Shown piece after piece: positions 713-38,499 of a stretch of DNA of 64,000 nt. Location of the stretch: the NCBI GenBank assembly GCA_019787685.1, contig JAHNUO010000004.1:2542001-2606000 (forward strand). The letters run 5' to 3'. The stretch is from Chiua virens (lineage: Eukaryota > Basidiomycota > Agaricomycetes > Boletales > Boletaceae). The notes below the pieces were generated by a model. The model searched no databases and was not told the DNA's origin. It saw nothing but the letters and a program-made list of their open reading frames with translations. Position 1 is the stretch's first letter. Every line of letters starts with the position of its first letter. The translations under genes were made by a program, and so were the position numbers.

Positions 713-1142
713 TGTTACGATACCAACTTTTCCTCACTTCTCAACTCCTACATTCAACTTATTCTAAACATACACGCCTCATGTCAAGGCTGTCCAAAGG
801 ATCATATCCGATTGGCTGCCACAATAACACAGCATCCATCACCTCATGTTCTTATCTATTCATTTCCCTTATCACTGACTCATCATCGGCAGTGCAAGGC
901 TATGCTCTTATCTATGACTCATACCGATTCACACCTTATCATCCAATAGGATACATTATGCTTATCTACATACTTCATACTCAGATTAGAACTCCGATAT
1001 CCATGTAGTATATAAACCCCATGAATGACAGCCAGAGAGCTCTAACAAAGTTCTCTTGGAGTTTTCGCCTCTTCACTGGACTGAACCCCCTCTACACTCA
1101 ACCACTACACTTTAACAGTCTAGGTTGTTCTAGGTTGTTTCA
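713..1142 (+). repeat. 5' LTR of copy B
   Basis: 430 bp, beginning TGTTACGATACC and ending TTGTTTCA (TG...CA). Comparison by eye with the 3' LTR at 7192-7621 found no difference. The U3/R boundary is inferred at about 1044, from the TATA box and the self-primer match. That gives an R region of about 99 bp and little or no U5. Confidence 0.96.
1009..1016 (+). promoter_or_regulatory. TATA box of the copy B LTR
   Basis: TATATAAA lies 35 bp upstream of the inferred RNA start at 1044. The motif and its spacing are kept in the LTRs of G (38597-39026) and C (40433-40440, with the primer-complement at 40468). Two ATGs at 1021 and 1025 lie just upstream of the inferred start, and none follow for over 900 bp, which supports a start near 1044. 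Confidence 0.8.
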
Positions 1143-1155
1143 TTAGAACTTTGTT
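1044..1155 (+). other. Tf1-type self-priming pair: RNA 5' end and primer-binding site
   Basis: AACAAAGTTCT at 1044-1054 is the exact reverse complement of AGAACTTTGTT at 1145-1155, two bases after the LTR end. In Tf1/sushi-type elements the first ~11 nt of the RNA fold back onto the primer-binding site and prime minus-strand synthesis in place of a tRNA. No TGG tRNA-type site follows the LTR. The same pair is present in copy G (38685-38695 with 38584-38594). Confidence 0.85.
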
Positions 1156-1236
1156 GTTTATCTTCGCCGTTGACCGACTACTGTCAAGTCCCAACCTCGT
1201 CGTAGCCCCTACTACAAAATAACACAACCGGGCCCA

Positions 1237-1940
1237 AGTAAGTCCCAAGTTTGAAAAGTAGTTGGAACATTTGCTACCAATAAGCCGAATTGCAAAAGAC
1301 TCAAGGTCTAGCAATCGCAGAAGCAGATAGCGCACCCCTTGACCAGAAAGGAGATCTTAACTGACCTGCCCAATCAGTGTCGAACCTACCCCTCTCTGCC
1401 ATCGCAGCAGCTTCAGAAGCTTTCCCTGACCTCGTCGACGAACCTTACGTCCTCGACACAGCTTATCTCGCAGAAATCGTCACTCTCGAGGACCTTGATC
1501 CCGAAGACCGCACCGACACAGAAATTTTCCACGCCTTACTAGGCCACTTCATAGGGGAAACTACTCCCTTATCAGACTACTCTAGTGAACGAGAGTCAAC
1601 CCGGTCCGACAGCCCGGCACTTAGGTATCCAACCGAGGAAGTTGAGGTCAAGCGCGAATATTTTCCCGCTCCCATTCCCGAAAGAGAACCGTCACCTTTC
1701 CCACCAGCTCCTTTGAGAGAACCATCGGAGGAAAGCCTAGGAGACCCAAACGATTGGCTCCCACCCAGAGAAATTGAGAGGAGAAACGCCAGGACAGATC
1801 TTGAGAGAAAGAGAATCCTGAGACGATACAAGGCTAACAGAGTACCGACTCGTATACGCCCATACTCCCAATACGATAACGCCGAATTCCCTTACTTTAG
1901 ACCTAGGAATACTCTTAGGATCCCTTCCAGATTCCTCTAG
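1237..1940 (+). CDS. ORF1: accessory protein of unknown function, start codon made by splicing
   Basis: The predicted CDS is base 1237 joined to 1378-1940, giving 187 aa beginning MSNLPLSAIAA. No ATG exists anywhere in this ORF or its leader in the DNA. The protein is acidic in its first third (LEDLDPEDRTDTEIF), proline/glutamate-rich in the middle and Arg-rich near the end. It has no signal peptide or membrane span, and I recognise no domain. It is not gag, which lies downstream. A related ORF1 is found in copy G (about three quarters identical by eye) and, decayed, in copy C. This conservation suggests a real protein. It may be a regulator or an assembly partner, but the function is not known. 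Confidence 0.72.
1238..1377 (+). other. Predicted intron that creates the ORF1 start codon
   Basis: Donor GTAAGT at 1238-1243, a CTGAC branch-like motif at 1361-1365, and acceptor CAG ending at 1377. Splicing joins A1237 to T1378-G1379, giving an ATG in frame with ORF1. Copy G has the same arrangement on the - strand: donor GTAAGT at 38498-38493, acceptor TAG ending at 38364, joining A38499 to T38363-G38362. The intron is present in genomic copies, so the RNA that is reverse-transcribed must be the unspliced form. Confidence 0.75.
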
Positions 1941-1954
1941 ATAGAAAATCTTTT

Positions 1955-2200
1955 ATGTCTTGGGAACTCGTCACACTCGCATCCATTATCTCTTGCACAA
2001 TAATCACCTTTTACTTCGGTTACATCGCATTCTACCTTACAAACAAGGTACAAGAATCGCAACGACCAATCTACGTCTCTATCAAACGACGAGACTATCC
2101 CTTCGCAATCACATTCGGCCTTTTCTCACCTTACGAAGAATACGGCACAGCAACCACTAACGCTTGGGGAGCACCAGAACCAGCAGCAGACGACTGGTAA
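1955..2200 (+). CDS. ORF2: small single-span membrane protein
   Basis: 81 aa beginning with the first ATG of the predicted unspliced RNA. Residues about 5-29 form a hydrophobic segment (SWELVTLASIISCTIITFYF and on), followed by a polar tail with YLTNKVQESQRPIYVS. It ends in a conserved GAPEP...W motif and a stop 16 nt before the gag ATG. Copy C keeps an intact 81-aa version and copy G a version with one TGA. In all three the tail and the final Trp are kept. The short spacing to gag suggests that gag is reached by termination-reinitiation. It might be a membrane-anchoring or viroporin-like protein; I find no evidence that it is an env glycoprotein. Confidence 0.75.
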   Translation: MSWELVTLASIISCTIITFYFGYIAFYLTNKVQESQRPIYVSIKRRDYPFAITFGLFSPYEEYGTATTNAWGAPEPAADDW

Positions 2201-2216
2201 ATAAAAACAAACAAGC

Positions 2217-3404
2217 ATGGATTACCACACCGCACTCGGAGTCCTTAACGACACTTCTCGCACGAATGGAGATCGTCTAATGGCCGCCTTCACTCTCGTT
2301 GCAGAACAAGCAACCCTTATTGCCGCCCTAGAAGGGCAACTCAATGCTTTACCCGTTATTCCCCCGCAGGCAGCTGCATCATCCTCTAAAGTCGAAATCT
2401 TCGCAGACCCAGGGTCATATGACGGAGAAATGTCCAAATTCGAAGAATGGTGGGCCAAAATGAAAGGATGGCTCGAAGTAAACAATCTCGCCATTCCCAA
2501 GGGCTCATACAGGGCCGTACAAGCCGTACTCTCACGGTTGAAAGGAAAGAAAGCGGCGCAATTCGCAGAAACGCGCTTAGCTAAAGGCTCCGCTCTTACA
2601 TGGGCAACATTAGTACAGGACATCGAAGGGATGTTCCGACAAAACAACAAGGTCGATTGGGCTAGATCCCAATTGGAAAATCTAAGACAAGGAACGATGA
2701 GAGTAGAGGACTATATTGTCCAATGGGAGGCACTGTGGCTACAAGCACACATCGACCCTACCCATGCGATAAGACTCCTCGAGGCAAACACTGCCCACTC
2801 CATCATTTATCAAATCTTCCGTGACAGACACAGGGTGGACCCCTTCCACGCCATGTACACGGACCCCAAACATGCAGAATACGAACCTGACCGTGATCAC
2901 GCGGTCATAACTTACCTTTCCTGGATTCGAACAGCGGGAAATGCCATGGAAGCACTCAATTACGTGCGACCAGACCGCTACAAAAAGTATAAGGATCCCA
3001 ATGCTATGGACATTGGCCAAGCCACTTACGCCGAAAGAGACGAAGATGGCTGGTTCACAGGAAAAGAAGTTAGAGCATTTGGTCAAAAGAAGACCAATAA
3101 CTCAAACAAGTGCTACAACTGCGGCGGTGCAGGTCACAGAACCAACGACTGCACCAAACCCAAAAACCAGTGCAGTGAATGCAAGTGGTACGGCGGATCT
3201 CATAAAACGCAATGTTCGCGCAAAGTCCGCTCGACAAACAAGGAAGAAAAGAAAACCATATCTTCTACTTCCACCACTTCCCCATCTGTACCGGCTAAAG
3301 ACCCCTTTGCCGCCATCCGAGGGATGTCCCCTGAGGAAGTTCAGGCATACTACTTCGATATGTATGAAAACAAGAACGGAAAGGGAAAAGGCAAGGCGAA
3401 CTGA
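2217..3404 (+). CDS. gag: Gag structural protein (capsid and nucleocapsid)
   Basis: 395 aa from ATG 2217. The middle (about residues 65-220) is a Retrotrans_gag-type helical capsid region with KVEIFADPGSYDGEM, EWWAKMKGWL and AIRLLEANTA motifs. A nucleocapsid follows: a CCHC knuckle, CYNCGGAGHRTNDC (C-x2-C-x4-H-x4-C), then a second Cys/His cluster C-x2-C-x6-H-x3-C. The C-terminus is Lys/Gly-rich and contains the frameshift site. Gag forms the particle in which reverse transcription takes place and binds the RNA through the knuckles. The reading frame is intact. Confidence 0.94.
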   Translation: MDYHTALGVLNDTSRTNGDRLMAAFTLVAEQATLIAALEGQLNALPVIPPQAAASSSKVEIFADPGSYDGEMSKFEEWWAKMKGWLEVNNLAIPKGSYRAVQAVLSRLKGKKAAQFAETRLAKGSALTWATLVQDIEGMFRQNNKVDWARSQLENLRQGTMRVEDYIVQWEALWLQAHIDPTHAIRLLEANTAHSIIYQIFRDRHRVDPFHAMYTDPKHAEYEPDRDHAVITYLSWIRTAGNAMEALNYVRPDRYKKYKDPNAMDIGQATYAERDEDGWFTGKEVRAFGQKKTNNSNKCYNCGGAGHRTNDCTKPKNQCSECKWYGGSHKTQCSRKVRSTNKEEKKTISSTSTTSPSVPAKDPFAAIRGMSPEEVQAYYFDMYENKNGKGKGKAN

Positions 3405-3430
3405 GTAAACTGGGATCTCACGTTCGCGCC
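3383..3430 (+). promoter_or_regulatory. -1 ribosomal frameshift site between gag and pol
   Basis: The heptamer GGGAAAA at 3383-3389 is phased G GGA AAA in the gag frame, the canonical X XXY YYZ form. The pol frame is -1 to gag and is open from 3368. Six nt later GCGAAC (3396-3401) can pair with GTTCGC (3422-3427), a possible stimulatory stem. The heptamer is kept in copy C (12378-12384) and, on the - strand, in copy G (19244-19250), even though the gag of G is diverged. The stem is eroded in those older copies. Confidence 0.78.
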
Positions 3431-6400
3431 ACCCTTCCAAAAGAATATGAAAACTCTATTTCTTTGAAATTCGACTTTAACTATTCAGAAATACCTCCCT
3501 GGCAAGAGGATAAACTACCTAAATCACCAAAAACAACAGAAAACGAAAGCGTTGACAGCGTCTCTGCGGAGCGCGGCGGACACGATAGTTCCGTGCTTAA
3601 TTCTGTCCCAAAACAAATACCCGATGGGTCTTTCATTAGATCTACATCGGTAGAAAAAGAAATTATTTTACCAATTTTGGTATCCCCAGTAAACCAAATT
3701 GGTTATGTTGGAGCAAAAGCGCTTCTTGATAGTGGAGCTAACGCGATCTTCATACACGAGGATTACGTCGCTAAGCATAAAATTCCCACATACGCGCTTC
3801 CACACCCAATACAAGTCTTCAATGTCGACGGAACCAAAAATCAAGCAGGCTCTATTACTCACGCCACCCAGATCCTAGTAGATTACAAAGGACACAGGGA
3901 AATAATGGTTGCTGAAGTTACCAACCTTGGAAAGAACGATCTGATCCTCGGATATACTTGGTTAAAGCACCACAACCCCCATATAGACTGGTCCACAGGA
4001 TCAGTTGTAATGCGGAGATGCCCCGAAGCATGTCATTCTCAAGAAGAAGACGATTTCTTGGATTCCATTATCGCAGAAGAACTTAACTATGCAAACTCTA
4101 TCGCGGAATCTCGTATTTTTACCGCAAACATGGAAACTCCACCTTCTCCTCCTAAGGAACGCACTCTTGAAGAGATGGTCCCACGAGAATATATGAAATA
4201 TGCTAAAGTATTTGGAAAGACGGAATCCGAAAGGATACCACTACGCAAACCATGGGATCACCATATTGACCTAAAAGAGTCTTTCGTTCCAGAGAAGGGT
4301 CGCTTAATACCCCTCTCTGTCACAGAACAAGAGGAGGTTTCCGCATTTATCGATGACCAATTAAAGAAAGGTTACATCAGACCCTCTAAGTCCGAACAAA
4401 CATCTCCGGACTTCTTTGTCCCAAAGAAAGATGGAAAGAAGCGTATGGTCCAGGATTACCGATACTTAAACGAACACACGACTAAGAATAACTACCCCTT
4501 GCCGCTCATTTCGCAGCTTGTGGATAAATTAAAAGACGCTAAACTTTTCACGAAAATGGATCTCCGATGGGGATACAATAACGTACGCATCAAAGAAGGC
4601 GACGAATGGAAAGCAGCATTTGTCTGTCACCGCGGGTCTTTCGAACCCATCGTCATGTACTTCGGATTATGTAACTCACCAGCAACGTTTCAAACCATGA
4701 TGAACGAAATCTTTGCCGATATGAACGGCGTCGTTGTCGTCTACATCGATGACCTTATGATCTTTACGAACACAGATGATTATGAAACTCATGACAAAAT
4801 CGTACTCGAAGTGCTTAAACGCCTCGAAGAAAACGATCTATACGTAAAACCAGAAAAATGCTTCTTCTGCGTAAAAGAAGTGGACTTCCTCGGAATGATC
4901 GTGGGAACTGATGGGATTAAAATGGATAACGAAAAGACCAAAGCAGTAGCCGAATGGCCAACCCCCACATCAGTCAAACACATCAGAAGTTTCCTCGGAC
5001 TTGCCAACTTCTATCGCAGATTCATTAAAGATTATGGAAAAATAGCACGACCCTTACACGACCTTACTAAAAAGGATCAAAAATTCGAATGGACCTTCGC
5101 TTGTGACGAAGCATTCACTATGCTCAAAAAGGCTTTTACGACAGCCCCCATCCTTGCTTATCCGGATCAGAATGCCAAATATCGCCTAGAATGCGATTCA
5201 TCGGATTTCGCTACAGGAGCAGTTCTATCTTTAGAAAAAGAAGGACTTTGGCACCCCGTCGCTTACAATAGCCACTCTATGACACCAGAAGAACGGAATT
5301 ACCCTATAGCCGATAAAGAAATGCTTTCGGTTATCCGCTCTCTAGAACTATGGCGCCACTATCTTGAGGGTGCAAAACATGAATTTGAAATATAGAATGA
5401 CCACCAGAACCTTACGTGGTTTATGACACGCCAAGATCTCAACCGAAGACAAGCGAGATGGGCTCAATATCTATCACGCTTTAACTTCACTTGGCACCAC
5501 AAGGCTGGAGTCACTATGGGAAAAGCAGATGCTCTAAGCAGACGAGAAGATCACATGATCGGAATCGAAGATGATAACAAAGGAATCCTTCTCATGGATC
5601 CATCTAAGATCAGATCAGCCGTCACTCTCCTATACAATGGTGATCAATTCTTATCTGACGTACAACATGAAACAATGAAACTATCACCTAATGCCATGAA
5701 ACACTTACTTTCTATCGGATACAAAGTCGAGGACGCCTTCCTTAGAAAGGGGGATAGGATCTTCATTCCGGACGCTTTACGCACCAAATCCATAACCATG
5801 TTTCATGACACACCCGAAGCCGGACATCCTGGCTATGACAAAACCTTAGAACTTCTATCTCGAACCTACATTTGGCCTCGAATGAACGAAGAAGTCAAAA
5901 ATTATGTCTCACATTGTGAAAGATGCGCTCGCTTCAAGGGTTCTAATCAGAAAACAGCAGGACTCCTGCAACCCTTAGAAACACCGTCATTACCATGGGA
6001 AAATATCTCAGCAGATTTCATTACAGATCTCCCACTTTCACACTCCTATGATTCCATTCTCACGGTTGTGGATCGCTTCTCCAAAGAAGTCGAATTCATC
6101 CCCTGCCACAAAACGTGTACATCTATGGATCTCGCTAAATTATATCTCTCACACATATGGAAACATCATGGCCTCCCGAAAACAATCATATCGGATAGAG
6201 GACCACAATTCGCCTCCCAACTTATGAAAGATATATGCTCAGGGCTAAAAATAACACCCAAATTAAGCACCGCACATCACCCACAAACAGACGGACAATC
6301 GGAACGAATGAACCGAGAAGTGCAACAATATCTTCGCATGTTCTGTGCCGAGAAGGATAACACATGGGCCGATTGGCTTCCTCTCGCACAATTCTCATAC

Positions 6401-7176
6401 AACAGCAAGAAACACACTGCCACTAAATTCTCACCATTCGAAATTACACGTTCCTACGTCCCCAGAATGGGAATTATGCCACAATCCATGAAAAACCCAG
6501 CTGCTCAGAACTACATTACGGATTTCTCCGAAGTTCTAGAACAAACCAAATCTAATATAGATAAAGCCGCAGAAAATATGAAAAACATTGCAGATAGATC
6601 GAGATCAGAACCCCCTTCCTATTCAATTGGAGATAAGGTCTGGCTCTCTACGGCAAACCTAAAAATAAGACAACATCCAAAATTCACGGATAAATGGATT
6701 GGCCCTTATGACATAATATCCATGCACGGTCCAAATGCTTTAAAGCTTCGACTCCCACGCACTATGCGAATACATCCAGTAGTAAATATTTCTCAGGTCA
6801 AACCTTATAAGGAACATCTACCAGAACAGCCGGTATACAAACCGAGGCCTGTCGTAATCGGAGATGACCGAGAAGAAGAATTCGAAGCAGACTATATTGT
6901 CGATTCCCGAATGAGAGGACGACGTTTAGAATATCTTATACACTGGAAAGGTTATGATGATGACGAAAGAACCTGGGAACCACCAAAGAATCTAAAGAAT
7001 GCTCCAGATCTCATATCTGACTTCCACGAAGCACATCCAGATGCCCCAAGGAAACTAAAAGTCACACAAACCGAATTTAACTCTATGTTCCGAACTTATG
7101 ACGATAAAACCTTACACGAAGATGAGGATAGTCTCCATCGTCTCAATTATGAAATAGATCATCCGGAGTTTGATCA

Positions 7177-7191
7177 ACAGAAGGGGGATAG
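7177..7191 (+). other. Polypurine tract of copy B
   Basis: A purine-rich stretch (AACAGAAGGGGGATA followed by G) directly before the 3' LTR, the expected plus-strand primer. It is the same in A (before 8536) and G (after 15522, - strand). Confidence 0.8.
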
Positions 7192-7621
7192 TGTTACGAT
7201 ACCAACTTTTCCTCACTTCTCAACTCCTACATTCAACTTATTCTAAACATACACGCCTCATGTCAAGGCTGTCCAAAGGATCATATCCGATTGGCTGCCA
7301 CAATAACACAGCATCCATCACCTCATGTTCTTATCTATTCATTTCCCTTATCACTGACTCATCATCGGCAGTGCAAGGCTATGCTCTTATCTATGACTCA
7401 TACCGATTCACACCTTATCATCCAATAGGATACATTATGCTTATCTACATACTTCATACTCAGATTAGAACTCCGATATCCATGTAGTATATAAACCCCA
7501 TGAATGACAGCCAGAGAGCTCTAACAAAGTTCTCTTGGAGTTTTCGCCTCTTCACTGGACTGAACCCCCTCTACACTCAACCACTACACTTTAACAGTCT
7601 AGGTTGTTCTAGGTTGTTTCA
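7192..7621 (+). repeat. 3' LTR of copy B
   Basis: 430 bp, same ends as the 5' LTR and no difference seen against it. It is followed directly by the TSD copy CCATC (7622-7626), after which the integrase of copy A resumes with the segment that continues from base 712. Confidence 0.96.
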
Positions 7622-7626
7622 CCATC

Positions 7627-8965: not shown

Positions 8966-9730
8966 CTCATCCTCCGACTCGTTCTCCATCACAATGGGAC
9001 ACTGTGCACATAACCTAGTTAGCATCACATGTACTGGACATGTATCTAGACATGCACCTTCTGTTTCTCTCTCCCCTCTGGTGCTTTCCCCTTCTTCTTG
9101 TACCTTCCTTGCACCTTCTCATCTCCCACATCCTCCCTTTCCTCACTCTCGTGCACTGCCACCATCACCTTCACCACATCATTAGCCGCCTTTCATAGCT
9201 TCTTGGCCGCATCCCACCATTGCCTTCTGCAACTCTTGAATTGTAAGGGTGACCACGTTGTCAACCCGAGCCTTGATGCCAGCATCCCAAGCCTGTCAAA
9301 GGCAGTCGCTGAGATGTTTCTGTAAAAACGAATTGTTCATGGTTAGTACACAACAAGACGTGATCGGTTAACTATGTACCAGGATCTTATCCCATTCCTC
9401 TCACAACATCCTCTGCTCCTTGGCCAGGTCCTCTCTATCATCCAGGATCATCTTTGTGAAGTCCCTGGTGCATCTGTTTGCATGCTTCAGCTCCATCTTG
9501 GCAAAGACGCGTGGTTTATACAGATTGACTGCTTTCTGTGTGTCCATGTATTTGAGGATTGACTTGGCATACAACATAGTGGAAGTTAAAAAGATAAAAG
9601 GAAAGGAAGAGCAGTGTGGATGCAATGCATTCAAGTAATGTCCAGTGGCACATTGTTCAGTTTTCAAACTCCGCTCACATGTACATCATGTGACCGACTG
9701 AGGACAGTTGGCATCCAAGTTCCCCTCAGG
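8966..9730 (-). pseudogene. H2 element, 3' internal part with decayed antisense gene
   Basis: Aligns with 27880-28649 of element H. On the - strand it keeps the first exon of the H antisense gene (9667-9401, with SILKYMDTQKAVNLYKPRVF), now ended by a TGA where H has CGA. The next intron, with its GTACATAG-like donor and TTTTTACAG acceptor, is still visible around 9320-9385. C-to-T and G-to-A decay is heavy. This shows that the antisense gene is a stable part of the family and not a one-off capture. Confidence 0.75.
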
Positions 9731-10432
9731 TGTAGGAGTTAGATACTCCTCATGGTTGTAGGATACCTTTTCCTCACTCTTTGTCATGTCCTATCACCTC
9801 CCATCTCATCTGCCATTGACTTCATGCCAGCCCGGTTTCATTCCTAGTGTTTACAGATCATCCGAATCCATCCGAGTCCAATCCGAGTCAATGCAATCCA
9901 ATCTGGTTTCATTGTACGTATTCCACTTCATCTGATTTGACTCGTTCTATTCAATTTGGTCTTATTAAGGTCATTACTATCCTAACAACTTTTCTTTCTT
10001 TGTCATCTACAAGGTTTGACACTCCTTCTTAGCATACTCACCCTACATCAATCCTGTACACTTACCTAGGGTCAGATTACCTTTAACAGTCCTGGGTTAT
10101 GCCCAGGACTATAAAACCATGTTTCTAACATAAAATATCATCTTTCTGCATTCAGGAGATGTCCTGTTTACTCTCCCATGTGTGAGTGAGCTGGATAGCT
10201 TTCCTTTTACCTCATCCTATCATTCCTCTGCATCTCATCCACTTGGATCAATCATCTCATCGCCTCAACTCCACCCGGATACTTTTTCATCAACCACTTT
10301 TCATTCCGGATCGTTCAACAGCCTCTGGGACTCCTAGACAAACCCGAATCCTTCATTCCTTCAAGTATAACCCCCTTGGGATGAACTTATCACCCCACCT
10401 TTCTTCATTACACCTTTTATTAGTTTTCTACA
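9731..10432 (+). repeat. 3' LTR of element H2
   Basis: 702 bp, TGTAGGAGTTAG...TTTTCTACA, matching the 706-bp LTRs at 23616-24321 and 28650-29355 but more diverged. It has a TATA-like ACTATAAAACC near 10110. It ends inside ORF1 of copy C, whose coding resumes at 10433 (CTGC would be the right TSD copy). The rest of H2 lies outside the window beyond copy A. Confidence 0.85.
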
Positions 10433-10436
10433 CTGC

Positions 10437-11002
10437 TATCCATTGTTGCAGCAGCACAGGAAGCATTCCCAGGTCTCGAGGACTCACCATACATTCTTGA
10501 CACCACCTACCTCACCAAAGTTGTCGCTCTCGAGGACCTTGATCCCGAAGACTGCACAGACACAGAAATCTTCCATGCCTCACTAGGCCACTTCATAGGA
10601 GACCATGTGTCCCTATCTGACTACAAGTCAACCTGGTCCAACAGTCCAGAATTAAGATATCCAACCGAGGAAGTTGAGGTAAAGCGCAAATACTTTCCCA
10701 CTCCCCTTCCTGAATGAGAACCTTCCCACTCTCTGAAAAGAGAAGTATCATCACCGCTCCCGGAACTCACACTGAGTAGAGCATTATCTGAAGAAAGTGA
10801 AGGAGACTCAAACAATTGGATCCCACCCAGAGAGCTAGAAAGAAGAGCCAATAGAACGGCTTTTCAGCAGAGGAGGATACAAAGACGAAACAGGGCATAC
10901 TTAGTTCCTGAACGAATCCGTCCTTACTCACAGTACGACATCATTGACTTCCCCGCTCTTAGGCCGAGAAATACTCTCTGCACTCCCTCCAAATACCTTT
11001 AG
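10437..11002 (+). pseudogene. ORF1 of copy C, 5'-truncated and decayed
   Basis: Reads in line with ORF1 of B and G from the SIVAAAQEAFPGLEDSPY region to the end (LRPRNTLCTPSKYL). It has a TGA near 10717 and an insertion in the Pro/Glu-rich part. The LEDLDPED and TDTEIFHA segments are kept. The start region and intron were lost with the H2 insertion. Confidence 0.8.
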
Positions 11003-11017
11003 AAAATAAATACTTTT

Positions 11018-11263
11018 ATGTCTTGGGAACTTGTTGCAATCATCTACATCACCGCCTGCACTCTTATGACATTTCTCTTTTCATACATCGCATTCTACTT
11101 GACCAACAAGGTACAAGAATCTCAGCAACCAATTTATGTCTCTATCAAACAACAAGACTACCCATTCGCAGTTACATTCAGTCTCTTCTTACCCTACAAA
11201 GAATACGGGACAGCCACTGCTAACACTTGGGGAGCACCAGAACCAACCACAGACACCTGGTAA
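11018..11263 (+). CDS. ORF2 of copy C: small single-span membrane protein
   Basis: 81 aa, the same length as in copy B, with intact ATG and stop although the elements around it are full of stops. The hydrophobic segment (residues about 5-29) is changed in sequence but stays hydrophobic. The tail FYLTNKVQESQ and the end GAPEP...W are kept. The gag ATG follows 6 nt after the stop. Survival of this small frame may be chance or past selection. Function unknown. Confidence 0.65.
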   Translation: MSWELVAIIYITACTLMTFLFSYIAFYLTNKVQESQQPIYVSIKQQDYPFAVTFSLFLPYKEYGTATANTWGAPEPTTDTW

Positions 11264-11269
11264 ACAAAT

Positions 11270-12399
11270 ATGGATTACCAAACTGCACTTGGAGTCATCA
11301 ATGACCCAAACCAATCAAATGGGAACAGAATCACTGCCTCATTTGCAATAATAAACCAACAAGAAACCATGATTGCAGCCCTTCAGGGTCAACTAAATAA
11401 TATACCATCCCCTATGCCACAAGCACAGGCTGCTTCTTCATCCAAAGTAGAAATATTCACAGACCCTGGTTCCTATGATGGAGAGATGGCCCGGTTTGAA
11501 AAATGGTGGGCAAAAATGAAAGCATGGCTCAAAGTCAACAACCAAGCTATCCCCGCCAATTCTCACACTGTGGTCCAAGCAGTACTCTCACACCTAAAAG
11601 GAAAGAAGGCTACACAATTTGCCGAAATGTGCTTAGCTAGAGGCACAATGCTCACATGGGCACAATTGGTCCAGGACATGGAAGGCACGTTCAGACAAAA
11701 CAACAAGGTCAATTGGGCTAGATCCCAATTAGAAAATCTCAAACAAGGAATGATGAGAGTAGAGGACTCCTTGAGGCTAACATAGCCCACTCTATCATCT
11801 ATCAGATCTTCTGTGATGGGCACAGAGTTGACCCCTTTCATGCAATATATATACACAGACGACTCACATCCAGATTTCATTAAAGATCGCAACCACATGG
11901 TCATCACATACCTTTCCTGGATCCAGCAAGCAGGAAATGCTATGAAAGCACTCAATTTCATGCGACCAGACCGCTGGAGAATGAATAACAAGGACCCTAA
12001 CACCATGGATATAGGTGCAGCCACTTATGCAAAAGACGAAGATGGCTAGTGAACAGGTGAACAGGTCAGAGCAATTGGTCAGAAGAAGACCAATAATACC
12101 AATAAATGTTTCAACTGCAACGAGTCTGGACACCAGACTAACAATTGCACAAAGACAAAAACCAATGCAGTGAATGCAAATGGTATGGTGGCAGACATAA
12201 ATTGCAATGCTCACGAAAAGTCCACACCACCAAAAAGGAAGAAAAGAAGACAATATCTTCTACTTCCACCTCTTCTCCCTCCGTACCAGCTATGGACCCT
12301 TTTGCCACTATTCGGGGAATGAACCCTGAACAAGTCCAGGCTTATTATTTTGACATGTACAACACCAAGAACAGAAAGGGAAAAGGCAAGGTGAACTGA
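11270..12399 (+). pseudogene. gag: Gag of copy C, disrupted
   Basis: Similar to gag of B from MDYQTALGVIND onward. The frame breaks near 11775, where the IVQWEALW...HAIRL segment is missing, and again near 12048 and 12145. The CCHC knuckle is recognisable as CFNCNESGHQTNNC. The C-terminal Lys/Gly tail and the GGGAAAA frameshift heptamer (12378-12384) are intact. Confidence 0.88.
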
Positions 12400-12401
12400 G
12401 T

Positions 12402-15092
12402 AAACTGGGATCTCACATTTGCACTTTCATTCCTAAAGAATATGAAAACTCTATTTCTCTCGGCTTTCATTTCTCTTACTCATCCAATAAATGTCCCTGG
12501 CAAGACATAAAAAGGCCTAAATCACCAAAAACAACAGAAAACGAAAGTGTTGATAGTGTCTCTGCAGAGCGTGGTGGACACGATAGTTCCATGCTTAATT
12601 CTGTCACAAAACAAATACCCAATGCTTTTATTAGGTCTACATCTATGGAAAAAGAAATTATATTACCAATTTTGGTATCCCCAGTAAACCAAATTGGCTA
12701 TGTTGGAGCAAAAGCACTCTTAGACAGTGGAGCTAATGTGATCTTCATACACAAAGACTACGTTGCTAAACATAAACTCCCACATCATGCACTTCCTCAC
12801 CTAATCCAAGTTTTCAGCATGGATGGTACTAAGAACCAAGCAGGCTCAATAACTCACGCCACACAGATCCTGATCAATTTCAAAGGTCACAGGGAAATAG
12901 TGGATGCCGAAATTACCAACCTTGGATAGAATGATCTTATCCTCAGATTCACATGGTTAAAGCACCACAATCCCCATATAGACTGGACAACAGGAATAGT
13001 AATGATGAGAAGATGCCCAGAGTCATGCCATTCGCAGGACGAAGACAATTTCTTGGATTCCATCATCGCAGAAGAAATCTCCTATGCAAACTCTATTGCC
13101 GAATCCTGTATTTTTTCCGCTCACATGGAAACTCCACCTTCTCCTCCTAAGGAACACACTCTTGAAGAGATGGTCCCTAAGCCATTTATGAAATATGCTA
13201 AAGTATTCGGAAAAACGGAATCTGAAAAAATACCATTATGTAAACCATGGAATCATGCCATTGACCTAAAAGAGTCTTTCGTTCCCAAGAAGGGTCGCTT
13301 AATACCCCTCTCTGTCACAGAACAAGAGAAGGTCTCTGCATTCATTGATGACCAATTAAAGCAAGGTTATATCAGACCCTCTAAATCAGAACAGACATCT
13401 CTGGTCTTCTTCATCCCAAAGAAAGATGGAAAGAAATGTATGGTTCAAGATTACTGATATCTAAATGAACACACATGCAAAAATAACTACCCTCTACTGC
13501 TTATTTCACAGCTGGTGGATAAACTAAAGGATGCTAAACTATTTACCAAAATGAATCTCCGATGGGGATACAATAATGTACACATCAAAGAAGGCGATGA
13601 ATGGAAGGCAGCATTTGTTTGTCACCACGGCTCTTTCAAACCGATTGTCATGTACTTCAGATTATGCAACTCACCGGCCATGTTCCAAACTATGATGAAC
13701 AAAATCTTTGCCGATATGAACAATGTTATTGTCGTATACATTGATGACCTTATGATATTCACTAAAACTGATGATCATGAAACCCATAACAAAATTGTAC
13801 TCCAGGTTCTCAAATGCCTTGAAGATAACAACCTTTATGTAAAACCAGAAAAATGCTTCTTCCATGTAAAAGAAGTGGACTTCCTTGGAATGATCATGGG
13901 AACTGATGGATTTAAAATGGATAACGAAAAGACCACAGCAGTAGCCGAATGGCCAACTCCCTCATCAGTCAAACACATCAGAAGTTTCCTCGGACTTGCC
14001 AACTTCTATCGCAGATTCATTAAAGATTATGGAAAAATAGCACACCCTTTACATGACCTTACTAAAAAGGATCAAAAATTTGAATGGACCTTCACTTGTG
14101 ATGAAGCCTTCACCATGCTTAAAAAGGCATTTACAACAGCCCCTATCCTTGCTTATCCAGATCAGAATGCCAAATATCACTTAGAATGTGATTCATTGGA
14201 TTTCGCAATGGGAGCAGTTCTATCTTTAGAAAAAGAAGGACTCTGGCACCCTGTTGCTTACAATAGCCACTCTATGACCCCAGAGGAATGGAACTACCCA
14301 ATAGCCGACAAAGAAATGCTCTCGGTTATCCGTTCACTTGAACTATGGTGCCACTATCTTGAGGGTGCAAAATATGAATTTGAAATATGGAATGACCACC
14401 AGAACCTTACATGGTTTATGACATGCCAAGATCTTAACTGAAGACAAGCGAGATGAGCACAATATCTCTTATGCTTTAACTTTACTTGGCATCACAAGGC
14501 TGGAGTCACTATGGGAAAAGCAAACACTTTAAGCAGGAGGGAGGACCACATGATCAGTATTGAAGATGATAACAAGGGAATACTCCTTATGGACCCTGCA
14601 AAAATCAGATCAGCCATCACTCTCCTATACAATGGCGATCAATTTCTATCTGACGTACAACATGAAACTATGAAATTATCACCTAATGCCATGAAACACC
14701 TTACTTCTATTGGATATGCAGTCGAGGACACCTTCCTTAGAAAGGGGGGTAAGATCTTCATTCCTGATGCTTTATGCACCAAATCCATCACCATGTTTCA
14801 TGATACACCAGAAGCTGGACATCCCAGTTATGACAAAACTTTAGAACTTCTCTCTTGCAACTACATATGGCCTCAAATGAAGGATAACGTAAAAACATAT
14901 GTATCTCATTGTGAAAGATGCACACAATTCAAGGGTTCAAACCAGAAAACAGCAGGTCTCTTACAACCCTTAGAAACCCCTAACGCTCTGTGGGAAGATA
15001 TTTCAGCAGATTTCATCACAGATCTTCCACTTTCACAATTCCATTCTCACAGTCATGGATCGCTTCTCCAAAGAAGTTGAATTCATCCCATG
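12402..15092 (+). pseudogene. pol: Pol of copy C, left part (protease to integrase)
   Basis: Protease LLDSGANV near 12720, RT with YIDDLMIF near 13740, RNase H, then the HHCC zinc segment and the first integrase Asp. Stops interrupt it near 12926, 13455 and 14439. The coding stops at 15087 in the segment that reads EFIPC in B, where copy G is inserted. The same reading resumes at 39032. Confidence 0.9.
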
Positions 15093-37812: not shown

Positions 37813-38499
37813 TTAGAGATATCTGGAAGGAATCCTAAGAGTATTTCTAGGACATAGTGTGGGGAATTCGAAGTTATCGTATTGGGAATACAGACGGATG
37901 CGGGAAGGAACTAAGTTAGCTCTGTGGCACCTAAGTATTCTTTTTCTTTCGATCTCCGTTCTCACGTTTCTCCTTTCAATCTCTCTGGGTGGGAGCCAAT
38001 TGTTAGGGTCTCCTAGACTTTCCTCAGAGGGCTCTTGTAGTGGAGCAGGTGGGAATGGTGACGGTTCTCTTTCAGGAATGGGAGTGGGGAAATACTCTCG
38101 CTTGACCTCAACTTCCTCAGTTGGATACCTTAATTCCAGGCTGTCGGACCGGGTTGACTCGTAGTCGGATAGGGACGCATCGTCTCCTATAAAGTGACCT
38201 AATAAGGCGTGGAAAATCTCTGTATCTGTCCTGTCCTCGGGATCAAGATCCTCTAAGGCAACTACCTCAGCGAGATAGGCGGCGTCAAGTACGTATGGTG
38301 AGTCTTCTAGACCCGGGAACGCTTCTTGAGCAGCGGTGACAATGGAGAGAGGGAGGGAGGTCACTATTTTTTGTGGTCTCAGTAAAGAGGACAATGAGTG
38401 ATGGGTGCACTTGTCAGCTGGTGTGCTATGTGGACCTTGAGTCTTGAGCGGCTTATTTGAAGCTAACAAAAATCTTCCGTTCAAAGGTTGCGACTTACT
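37813..38499 (-). CDS. ORF1 of copy G, start codon made by splicing
   Basis: The predicted CDS is base 38499 joined to 38363-37813 (184 aa, MTSLPLSIVTAAQEAFPG). The intron 38498-38364 has GTAAGT and TAG ends and joins A to TG. The exon frame is open to TAG at 37813, with no stop, although the rest of this element is decayed. Two ATGs occur in ORF1, both out of frame and both explicable by C-to-T change at a CpG. It aligns with ORF1 of B throughout (LEDLDPEDRTDTEIFHALLG, LRYPTEEVEVKREYFP). Function unknown. Confidence 0.7.
   Translation of the reverse strand, partial: SKSQPLNGRFLLASNKPLKTQGPHSTPADKCTHHSLSSLLRPQKIVTSLPLSIVTAAQEAFPGLEDSPYVLDAAYLAEVVALEDLDPEDRTDTEIFHALLGHFIGDDASLSDYESTRSDSLELRYPTEEVEVKREYFPTPIPEREPSPFPPAPLQEPSEESLGDPNNWLPPREIERRNVRTEIERKRILRCHRANLVPSRIRLYSQYDNFEFPTLCPRNTLRIPSRYL

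Follow-up and report, generated by a model that had tools for sequence, protein, structure and literature searches.

We suggest that an LTR retrotransposon of Chiua virens probably has a start codon that is gated by splicing. This element lies in the window, by which we mean the whole 64,000-nucleotide stretch of DNA that was analysed. As read from its sequence, the spliced RNA would encode a protein that we call ORF1, and the unspliced RNA would encode ORF2 and Gag-Pol. The splice sites are conserved, the start codon is split between them, ORF1 is under selection, AUG is depleted in the region before gag, and the contexts of the start codons differ in a consistent way. We infer that splicing does occur, that the unspliced RNA is the messenger for Gag and that ORF1 acts in the nucleus on the RNA of the element.

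In the mechanism that we propose, a single primary transcript would start near position 1044. Removal of a 140-nt leader intron would join A1237 to T1378-G1379, and the first AUG of the spliced RNA would then be that of ORF1. Reverse transcription needs an RNA with the intron retained, and on such RNA there would be no AUG in the leader, in the intron or in ORF1. On this RNA, ribosomes would scan to the weak AUG of ORF2 and onward to the strong AUG of Gag, which could be reached past ORF2 by leaky scanning or by reinitiation over short gaps. Pol would be made by -1 frameshifting at GGGAAAA. By analogy, the ORF1 protein may act in the nucleus on the RNA of the element, for example in export or in the control of splicing.

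The element and its split start codon

The source assembly consists of 48.3 Mb in 136 contigs. It gave 18 matches to hydrophobins and 23 to exons of the STE3 receptor, on contigs C13, C2 and C7, and each of the two was matched in 0 of 14 control genomes, which speaks for a mushroom-type fungus and probably for Basidiomycota. The window element is found at 713-7621 on the forward strand (Table 1) and reads as a Ty3/gypsy chromovirus inside another copy of its own family. It has gag, protease, reverse transcriptase, RNase H, integrase and chromodomain in this order, with domain matches to Retrotrans_gag and CCHC, to RVP_2, RVT_1 and RNaseH, and to Integrase_H2C2, rve and Chromo. It is bounded by LTRs and by a short target-site duplication. 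Since the 5' and 3' LTRs are identical over the 429 columns compared, this is taken to be a young copy. Despite the identical LTRs, a TAG stands in frame at 5393-5395, in the RNase H part of pol. The gag and pol frames overlap, with pol in the -1 frame, and the candidate frameshift site lies shortly ahead of the stop codon of Gag and is followed by a fold with z = -2.8. ENA and JGI records hold 24 homologues of Gag, with local identities of 32-39%, and a scan of IMG/VR with the gag alignment gave no confirmed match. No Rfam family matched within the window at the gathering threshold.

Table 1. Features of the window element and of the diverged copy G, in window coordinates
Feature	Position	Strand	Basis
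5' LTR (TG...CA), 430 bp	713..1142	+	sequence
3' LTR	7192..7621	+	sequence, LTR comparison
Target-site duplication CCATC	708-712 and 7622-7626		sequence
TATA-like box	1009..1016	+	read directly
AACAAAGTTCT, predicted RNA 5' end and self-primer	1044..1054	+	11-nt complement of 1145-1155
AGAACTTTGTT, predicted self-priming primer-binding site	1145..1155	+	complementarity to 1044-1054
Last base of exon 1, A, first base of the ORF1 start codon	1237	+	A in 79/79 copies with a donor, 21/21 representatives
Predicted retained/spliced intron, 140 nt, GTAAGT...CTGAC...CAG	1238..1377	+	alignment of copies, AUG-depleted
ORF1: TG of the start codon, then 186 codons, TAG at 1938-1940	1378..1940	+	ORFs, alignment
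ORF2, 81 aa, hydrophobic N-terminal stretch (by eye), weak AUG (T at -3)	1955..2200	+	ORFs, start contexts
gag, Retrotrans_gag and CCHC knuckle, AUG in strong context	2217..3404	+	domain search, start contexts
pol part 1: protease, RT, start of RNase H; stops at in-frame TAG	3368..5395	+	ORFs, domain search
GGGAAAA, candidate -1 frameshift site, in phase with gag	3383..3389	+	stable fold downstream
pol part 2: remaining RNase H, integrase, chromodomain	5396..7246	+	domain search
Copy G intron, 135 nt; A38499 joins T38363-G38362	38364..38498	-	sequence
Copy G ORF1, 81% identical to window ORF1	37813..38363	-	sequence, identity

In self-priming of the Tf1 type, the 5' end of the RNA can pair with a site that directly follows the 5' LTR. 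The fungal element has this layout as an exact pair of 11-mers, the RNA 5' end being a predicted one, and both 11-mers were found as an exact pair on one strand in 20/20 long copies. The primer-site script returned no site for copies L100 and L103. Tf1 is not known to carry an upstream spliced ORF. Two LTR matches of more than 380 nt are present in 15 of the 20 long copies, with pair identities of 99.05-100%, and all 15 keep the split ATG. These recent copies (15/20 with LTR pairs of 99-100%) suggest that the system may still be running.

An earlier note on this DNA had claimed that ORF1 has no ATG of its own. This is borne out, as positions 1044-1954 hold no ATG in any sense frame. When A1237 and T1378-G1379 are joined across the GT-AG intron, an ATG in frame with ORF1 is formed. 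The intron had been placed exactly; GTAAGT stands at 1238-1243, CTGAC at 1361-1365 and CAG at 1375-1377. Copy G, on the other strand, has GTAAGT at 38498-38493, AG at 38365-38364 and TG at 38363-38362. Its donor, its acceptor and the in-frame result are as had been described, but the copy belongs to the family of the window element, from which it has diverged, and is not an independent element.

The core of the intron around ACTCAAGGTC is conserved in window positions 1238-1377 and in the introns of other copies, and it is perhaps a packaging or protein-binding signal. A search for conserved RNA structure in the intron gave only a 4-bp hairpin around GGTC (energy -2.1; 1/100 column shuffles as low), for which we do not claim a packaging role.

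Conservation of the splice sites in the family

A total of 82 copies were compared, consisting of the window element, two other copies in the window, 39 matches from a listing in which 40 of 136 candidates were scored, and 40 more copies from 151 matches. The last 40 were chosen chiefly because they were divergent and extended to the N terminus of ORF1; splice sites played no part in the choice. The most divergent ORF1s of the copies examined are 41-45% identical to that of the window element. A donor was found by script in 79/82 copies, it is preceded by A in 79/79, and an ATG is formed in 78. Thus, the arrangement A/GT...AG/TG (slashes mark the exon borders) is kept in 78/82 copies by script and in 80/82 when two copies with nested insertions are counted. 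The 79 donor hexamers are 75 GTAAGT, 2 GTTAAG, 1 GTATGT and 1 GTAAGC, and the introns measure 131-152 nt. The donor finder favours donors preceded by A. When this preference is removed, 75 of the 81 copies with an acceptor call have exactly one GTAAGT at 100-175 nt upstream, preceded by A; one (L066) has a GTAAGT preceded by T, together with A/GTATGT 4 nt upstream of it, and five have no GTAAGT. An alignment of copies gives the same columns.

As the copies are related to each other, they do not count as independent events. Out of 78 leaders that were aligned (winC, L073, L088 and L039 having been excluded beforehand), 21 representatives less than 85% identical were examined. Counted from the donor, A stands at -1 in 21/21, and no base at positions -2 to -8 reaches more than 15/21. 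The GT, the AG and the T after it are found in 21/21 and the following G in 20/21. Averaged over columns, conservation is 0.74 for exon 1, 0.70 for the inner part of the intron and 0.68 for early ORF1, but the branch-like motif reaches 0.96 and the donor 0.90-1.0. The A column scores just 0.62 in the gapped alignment, in contrast to 21/21 counted from the donor, because the aligner places this A in neighbouring columns. Since fungal donors usually have G at -1, the fixed A is better explained by a start codon. The GT, the AG and the split A/TG are thus conserved well above the surrounding bases, in line with what the earlier note had expected of the family.

An ordinary ATG for ORF1 in other copies, which that note would have counted against its reading, was not found, as in 79/79 copies the stretch from the upstream stop to the acceptor is free of in-frame ATGs. 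The intron carries an in-frame stop in 78/79 copies, with no in-frame ATG after that stop, so an N-terminal extension of ORF1 on unspliced RNA is closed off. Just past the TG, the N terminus of ORF1 is longer or shorter by whole codons from copy to copy, and the frame is kept.

Four of the 82 copies were missed by the script, namely L081, L073, L088 and the window copy at 10.4 kb, and only two of these are true exceptions: L081, which reads AG/TATC, and the 10.4 kb copy. Loss of the intron was considered for L073 and L088 and rejected, because both hold inserted repeats with the same bases flanking each insert. The repeat lies within ORF1 in L073, and another LTR element lies within the intron in L088; in each, the separated 5' half carries A/GTAAGT. 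The insert in the intron of L088 (with L109, C9:185-193 kb) is from a different and abundant LTR family and has GATAG on both sides. That family gives 423-nt matches, often paired about 7 kb apart. In the 10.4 kb copy, an unrelated high-copy repeat stands in place of the 5' part, with the change at about 10432, and no leader was found upstream of this repeat at 8970-10440. This copy, at 9900-15080 of the window, is an old one, with many changes of the C-to-T type by eye when compared to the window element.

Intronless retrocopies could have given genomic proof of splicing, and this line was dropped since none of the copies scored crosses the junction. An 83-base junction probe of the window type matched 59 pieces, none of which spans the junction among the 40 of 43 candidates scored; the junctions of other subfamilies were checked through the 82 copies only. 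A junction pattern of 18 bases was found at eight places, all with two mismatches, and its reversed control at one. One of the eight, L050, has no element features in 2,000 of its 3,018 bases. Because no contiguous intronless copy was found with the window-type probe among the candidates scored, it seems that the spliced RNA is not copied into DNA, which is compatible with its not being packaged. The same absence also fits a lack of splicing, but in that case ORF1 would be under selection and yet have no AUG. A second acceptor at gag was considered as well and is not conserved, as just 9/40 copies have an AG at 6 nt or less from the Gag ATG.

AUG depletion, start contexts and competing readings

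To measure AUG depletion, ATG was counted against 300 dinucleotide shuffles, and CAT, the same triplet on the other strand, was counted alongside. In the leader, 3 ATGs are observed where 53.2 are expected (75 copies; CAT 151), and in the intron 24 where 128.0 are expected (79 copies; CAT 119). ORF1 has 57 against 150.9 (50 copies; CAT 360), and ORF2 past its own start has 24 against 70.2 (42 copies; CAT 143). None of the 300 shuffles was as low in any of the four regions. Because the copies are related, the representatives were also counted, with 2 ATGs against 15.1 in the leader (n=19) and 13 against 31.7 in the intron (n=21). Positions 1046-1954 of the window hold none against 4.9, with 7 of 2,000 shuffles as low. 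The gag and pol of the window element are not depleted (25 against 17.7 and 44 against 29.5). When synonymous codons are shuffled, the 37 full ORF1s have a mean of 0.49 out-of-frame ATGs against 1.80 expected, and only 24/50 ORF1s are free of ATG in all frames, compared with 2.5 expected. Old divergent copies carry ATGs in the intron and in ORF1, often where their relatives have ACG by eye, and the intron ATGs are as expected of decay.

The intron lies within this AUG desert, and its depletion matters only if the unspliced RNA is scanned. This bears on the main competing reading, which we consider improbable but deserving of weight. It holds that splicing does make the ORF1 AUG but that there is no two-way switch: the spliced RNA would be the sole messenger, on which leaky scanning or reinitiation gives all three of ORF1, ORF2 and Gag, and the unspliced RNA would be genome only. 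The start contexts agree with such a series. The ORF1 AUG is weak, with C at -3 in 69/79 copies, the ORF2 AUG is weak, with T at -3 in 42/42, and the gag AUG is strong, with A or G at -3 in 42/42. Moreover, the ORF1 stop adjoins the ORF2 ATG, and an AUG-poor ORF1 would also aid leaky scanning. Yet the loss of AUG from the intron (24 against 128.0 in all copies, 13 against 31.7 in the representatives) would be needless if the unspliced RNA were never scanned.

We keep the reading in which both RNAs are translated. The earlier note had described a switch between two protein programmes, and this part is favoured by the AUG desert that includes the intron, by the weak context of ORF2 and the strong one of Gag, by the selection on ORF1 and by the absence of an intronless copy among those scored. 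The details are to be modified. Because ORF2 is between ORF1 and gag, the unspliced RNA would meet the ORF2 AUG before that of Gag, and because the context of the ORF1 AUG is weak, the spliced RNA could also give some Gag by leaky scanning. The switch may thus be partial.

Wherever AG/TG is kept, the unspliced triplet at the acceptor is GTG, and this could possibly serve as a weak non-AUG start in the unspliced RNA. Non-AUG starts exist in eukaryotes, and it could be argued that ORF1 begins on unspliced RNA at such a codon, for example the acceptor GTG, the intron-like signals being incidental or used otherwise. We judge this to be very unlikely. It leaves unexplained the A at -1 in 79/79 copies, the donor hexamer and the conserved branch-like motif, and the representatives differ from one another at bases -3 to -6 ahead of the exon.

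The upstream proteins and their known counterparts

The median dN/dS of ORF1 is 0.14 (994 of 1,225 pairs with dS>0.2, among the 50 intact ORF1s from 54 copies), and all pairs together show 41,892, 30,271 and 77,419 changes at the three codon positions, with an excess at the third. These substitution patterns show that purifying selection acts on ORF1. An ORF1 of 165-215 codons is lacking in 4/54 copies, and an ORF2 of 75-95 codons in 12/54. ORF1 is rich in P, E and R and has only 4 Met in 9,312 residues, with none in 46/50 ORF1s and one in the other four. Pfam gave no family for the ORF1 of the window copy; DUF5491 matched 3 of 13 ORF1s with a best E of 0.0013 and was not used. No homologue was found in a set of 5.8 billion proteins, either with the single sequence or with an alignment of 13, and no relative was found among solved structures. 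That ORF1 is dead or non-coding, with a frame open by accident, would agree with this lack of homologues and of a Pfam family, but it is hardly credible given the dN/dS, the third-position excess and the whole-codon length changes at the N terminus.

The structure model of ORF1 has a mean pLDDT of 52.9 and a pTM of 0.18, and only the helix at 130-153 is near 70. An arginine-rich helix is predicted here with low to moderate confidence. Since the fold is of low confidence, the role of ORF1 is a guess. It may lie in the nuclear handling of RNA, by analogy with CERV of Cer1 or Rev of HIV.

ORF2 has a median dN/dS of 0.18, with quartiles of 0.08-0.45 (777 of 861 pairs, 42 ORF2s), a wider spread than in ORF1. 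Most intact copies carry one of two strongly diverged versions, type A with 81 aa and type B with 88-89 aa, which are 26-29% identical (L104, L105, L106, L108 and others being included in this comparison). The ORF1 stop abuts the ORF2 ATG with a gap of 0 in 20/22 copies of type B, and the gap is 11-20 nt in 20/20 of type A. The types of leader and intron, ORF1, ORF2 and gag occur in differing combinations (L096-L108, L009-L047), where the gag types are distinguished by MDYHTAL or MSGYTYA starts. These mixed combinations suggest mosaic recombination within the family.

Spliced accessory genes are already known in retroelements; for example, some insect errantiviruses express env from spliced RNA. 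What appears to be new here is the predicted split start codon upstream of gag. The earlier note knew of no retrotransposon with this arrangement, and none with a start codon made by splicing was found in the accessible text of open-licence papers. A survey of fungal chromoviruses names, in a figure legend, additional ORFs of unknown function (PMC2864245).

A close likeness is to Cer1, a Ty3/gypsy element of C. elegans. According to the sections of the report available, Cer1 makes the accessory protein CERV from a spliced mRNA and Gag-Pol from the unspliced genomic RNA, and CERV is without obvious homology outside nematodes (PMC10309623). The same source indicates that this spliced accessory protein can be required for the export of unspliced RNA (PMC10309623). 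The fungal element has conserved splice sites, and its ORF1 may likewise come from a spliced RNA. In contrast to Cer1, its gene precedes gag and the start codon itself is split; those sections on Cer1 describe no split start codon (PMC10309623). The likeness to HIV-1 Rev (PMC7776567) is an analogy of role for ORF1, and no sequence relation is claimed.

The layout of two small ORFs upstream of gag is shared with the MDG1 group of Drosophila (412, mdg1 and Stalker2), which has sORF1 and sORF2 before gag (PMC11952523). There, sORF1 is nuclear in 412, sORF2 is a small transmembrane protein, both are reported to have low non-synonymous to synonymous rates, the full-length RNA shows no sign of splicing, and a short RNA ends just past sORF1 (PMC11952523). 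The sORF2 described there has an ectodomain of about 30 residues and mostly an N-myristoylation motif, with an MGxxxS/T start (PMC11952523). The fungal ORF2 is nearly devoid of an ectodomain and lacks such a start. Intact fungal ORF2s are hydrophobic by eye from the first few residues and begin with MSW, MLA, MFA or MFL. The Ogre elements of plants (Tat lineage, Ty3/gypsy) have a putative intron between Gag and Pol, and partial splicing of pea Ogre appears in the title of a work cited by the same source (PMC9289625). The fungal element differs, as its intron lies before ORF1 and its gag and pol overlap in the -1 frame.

As a tentative proposal, which we hold with somewhat less than even confidence, this may be a new form of gene control in which intron retention sets the first AUG. 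ORF1, as a regulator whose start codon is put together by splicing, would act back on the unspliced RNA, and this RNA, free of AUG in leader, intron and ORF1, would give Gag as well as a small membrane protein. With two ORFs ahead of gag, the element would be a fungal and probably convergent counterpart of the MDG1 elements with sORF1 and sORF2, and of the regulators Rev and CERV. Where a single RNA of an LTR element is genome and messenger alike, a choice has to be made as to which protein is started, and the split start codon seems to be a simple device for that decision. If true, the fungal case would join the spliced regulators of retroviruses and Cer1, and gene finders that demand an ATG would miss ORF1. 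This suggests that hidden ORFs started by splicing before gag are worth seeking in other elements.
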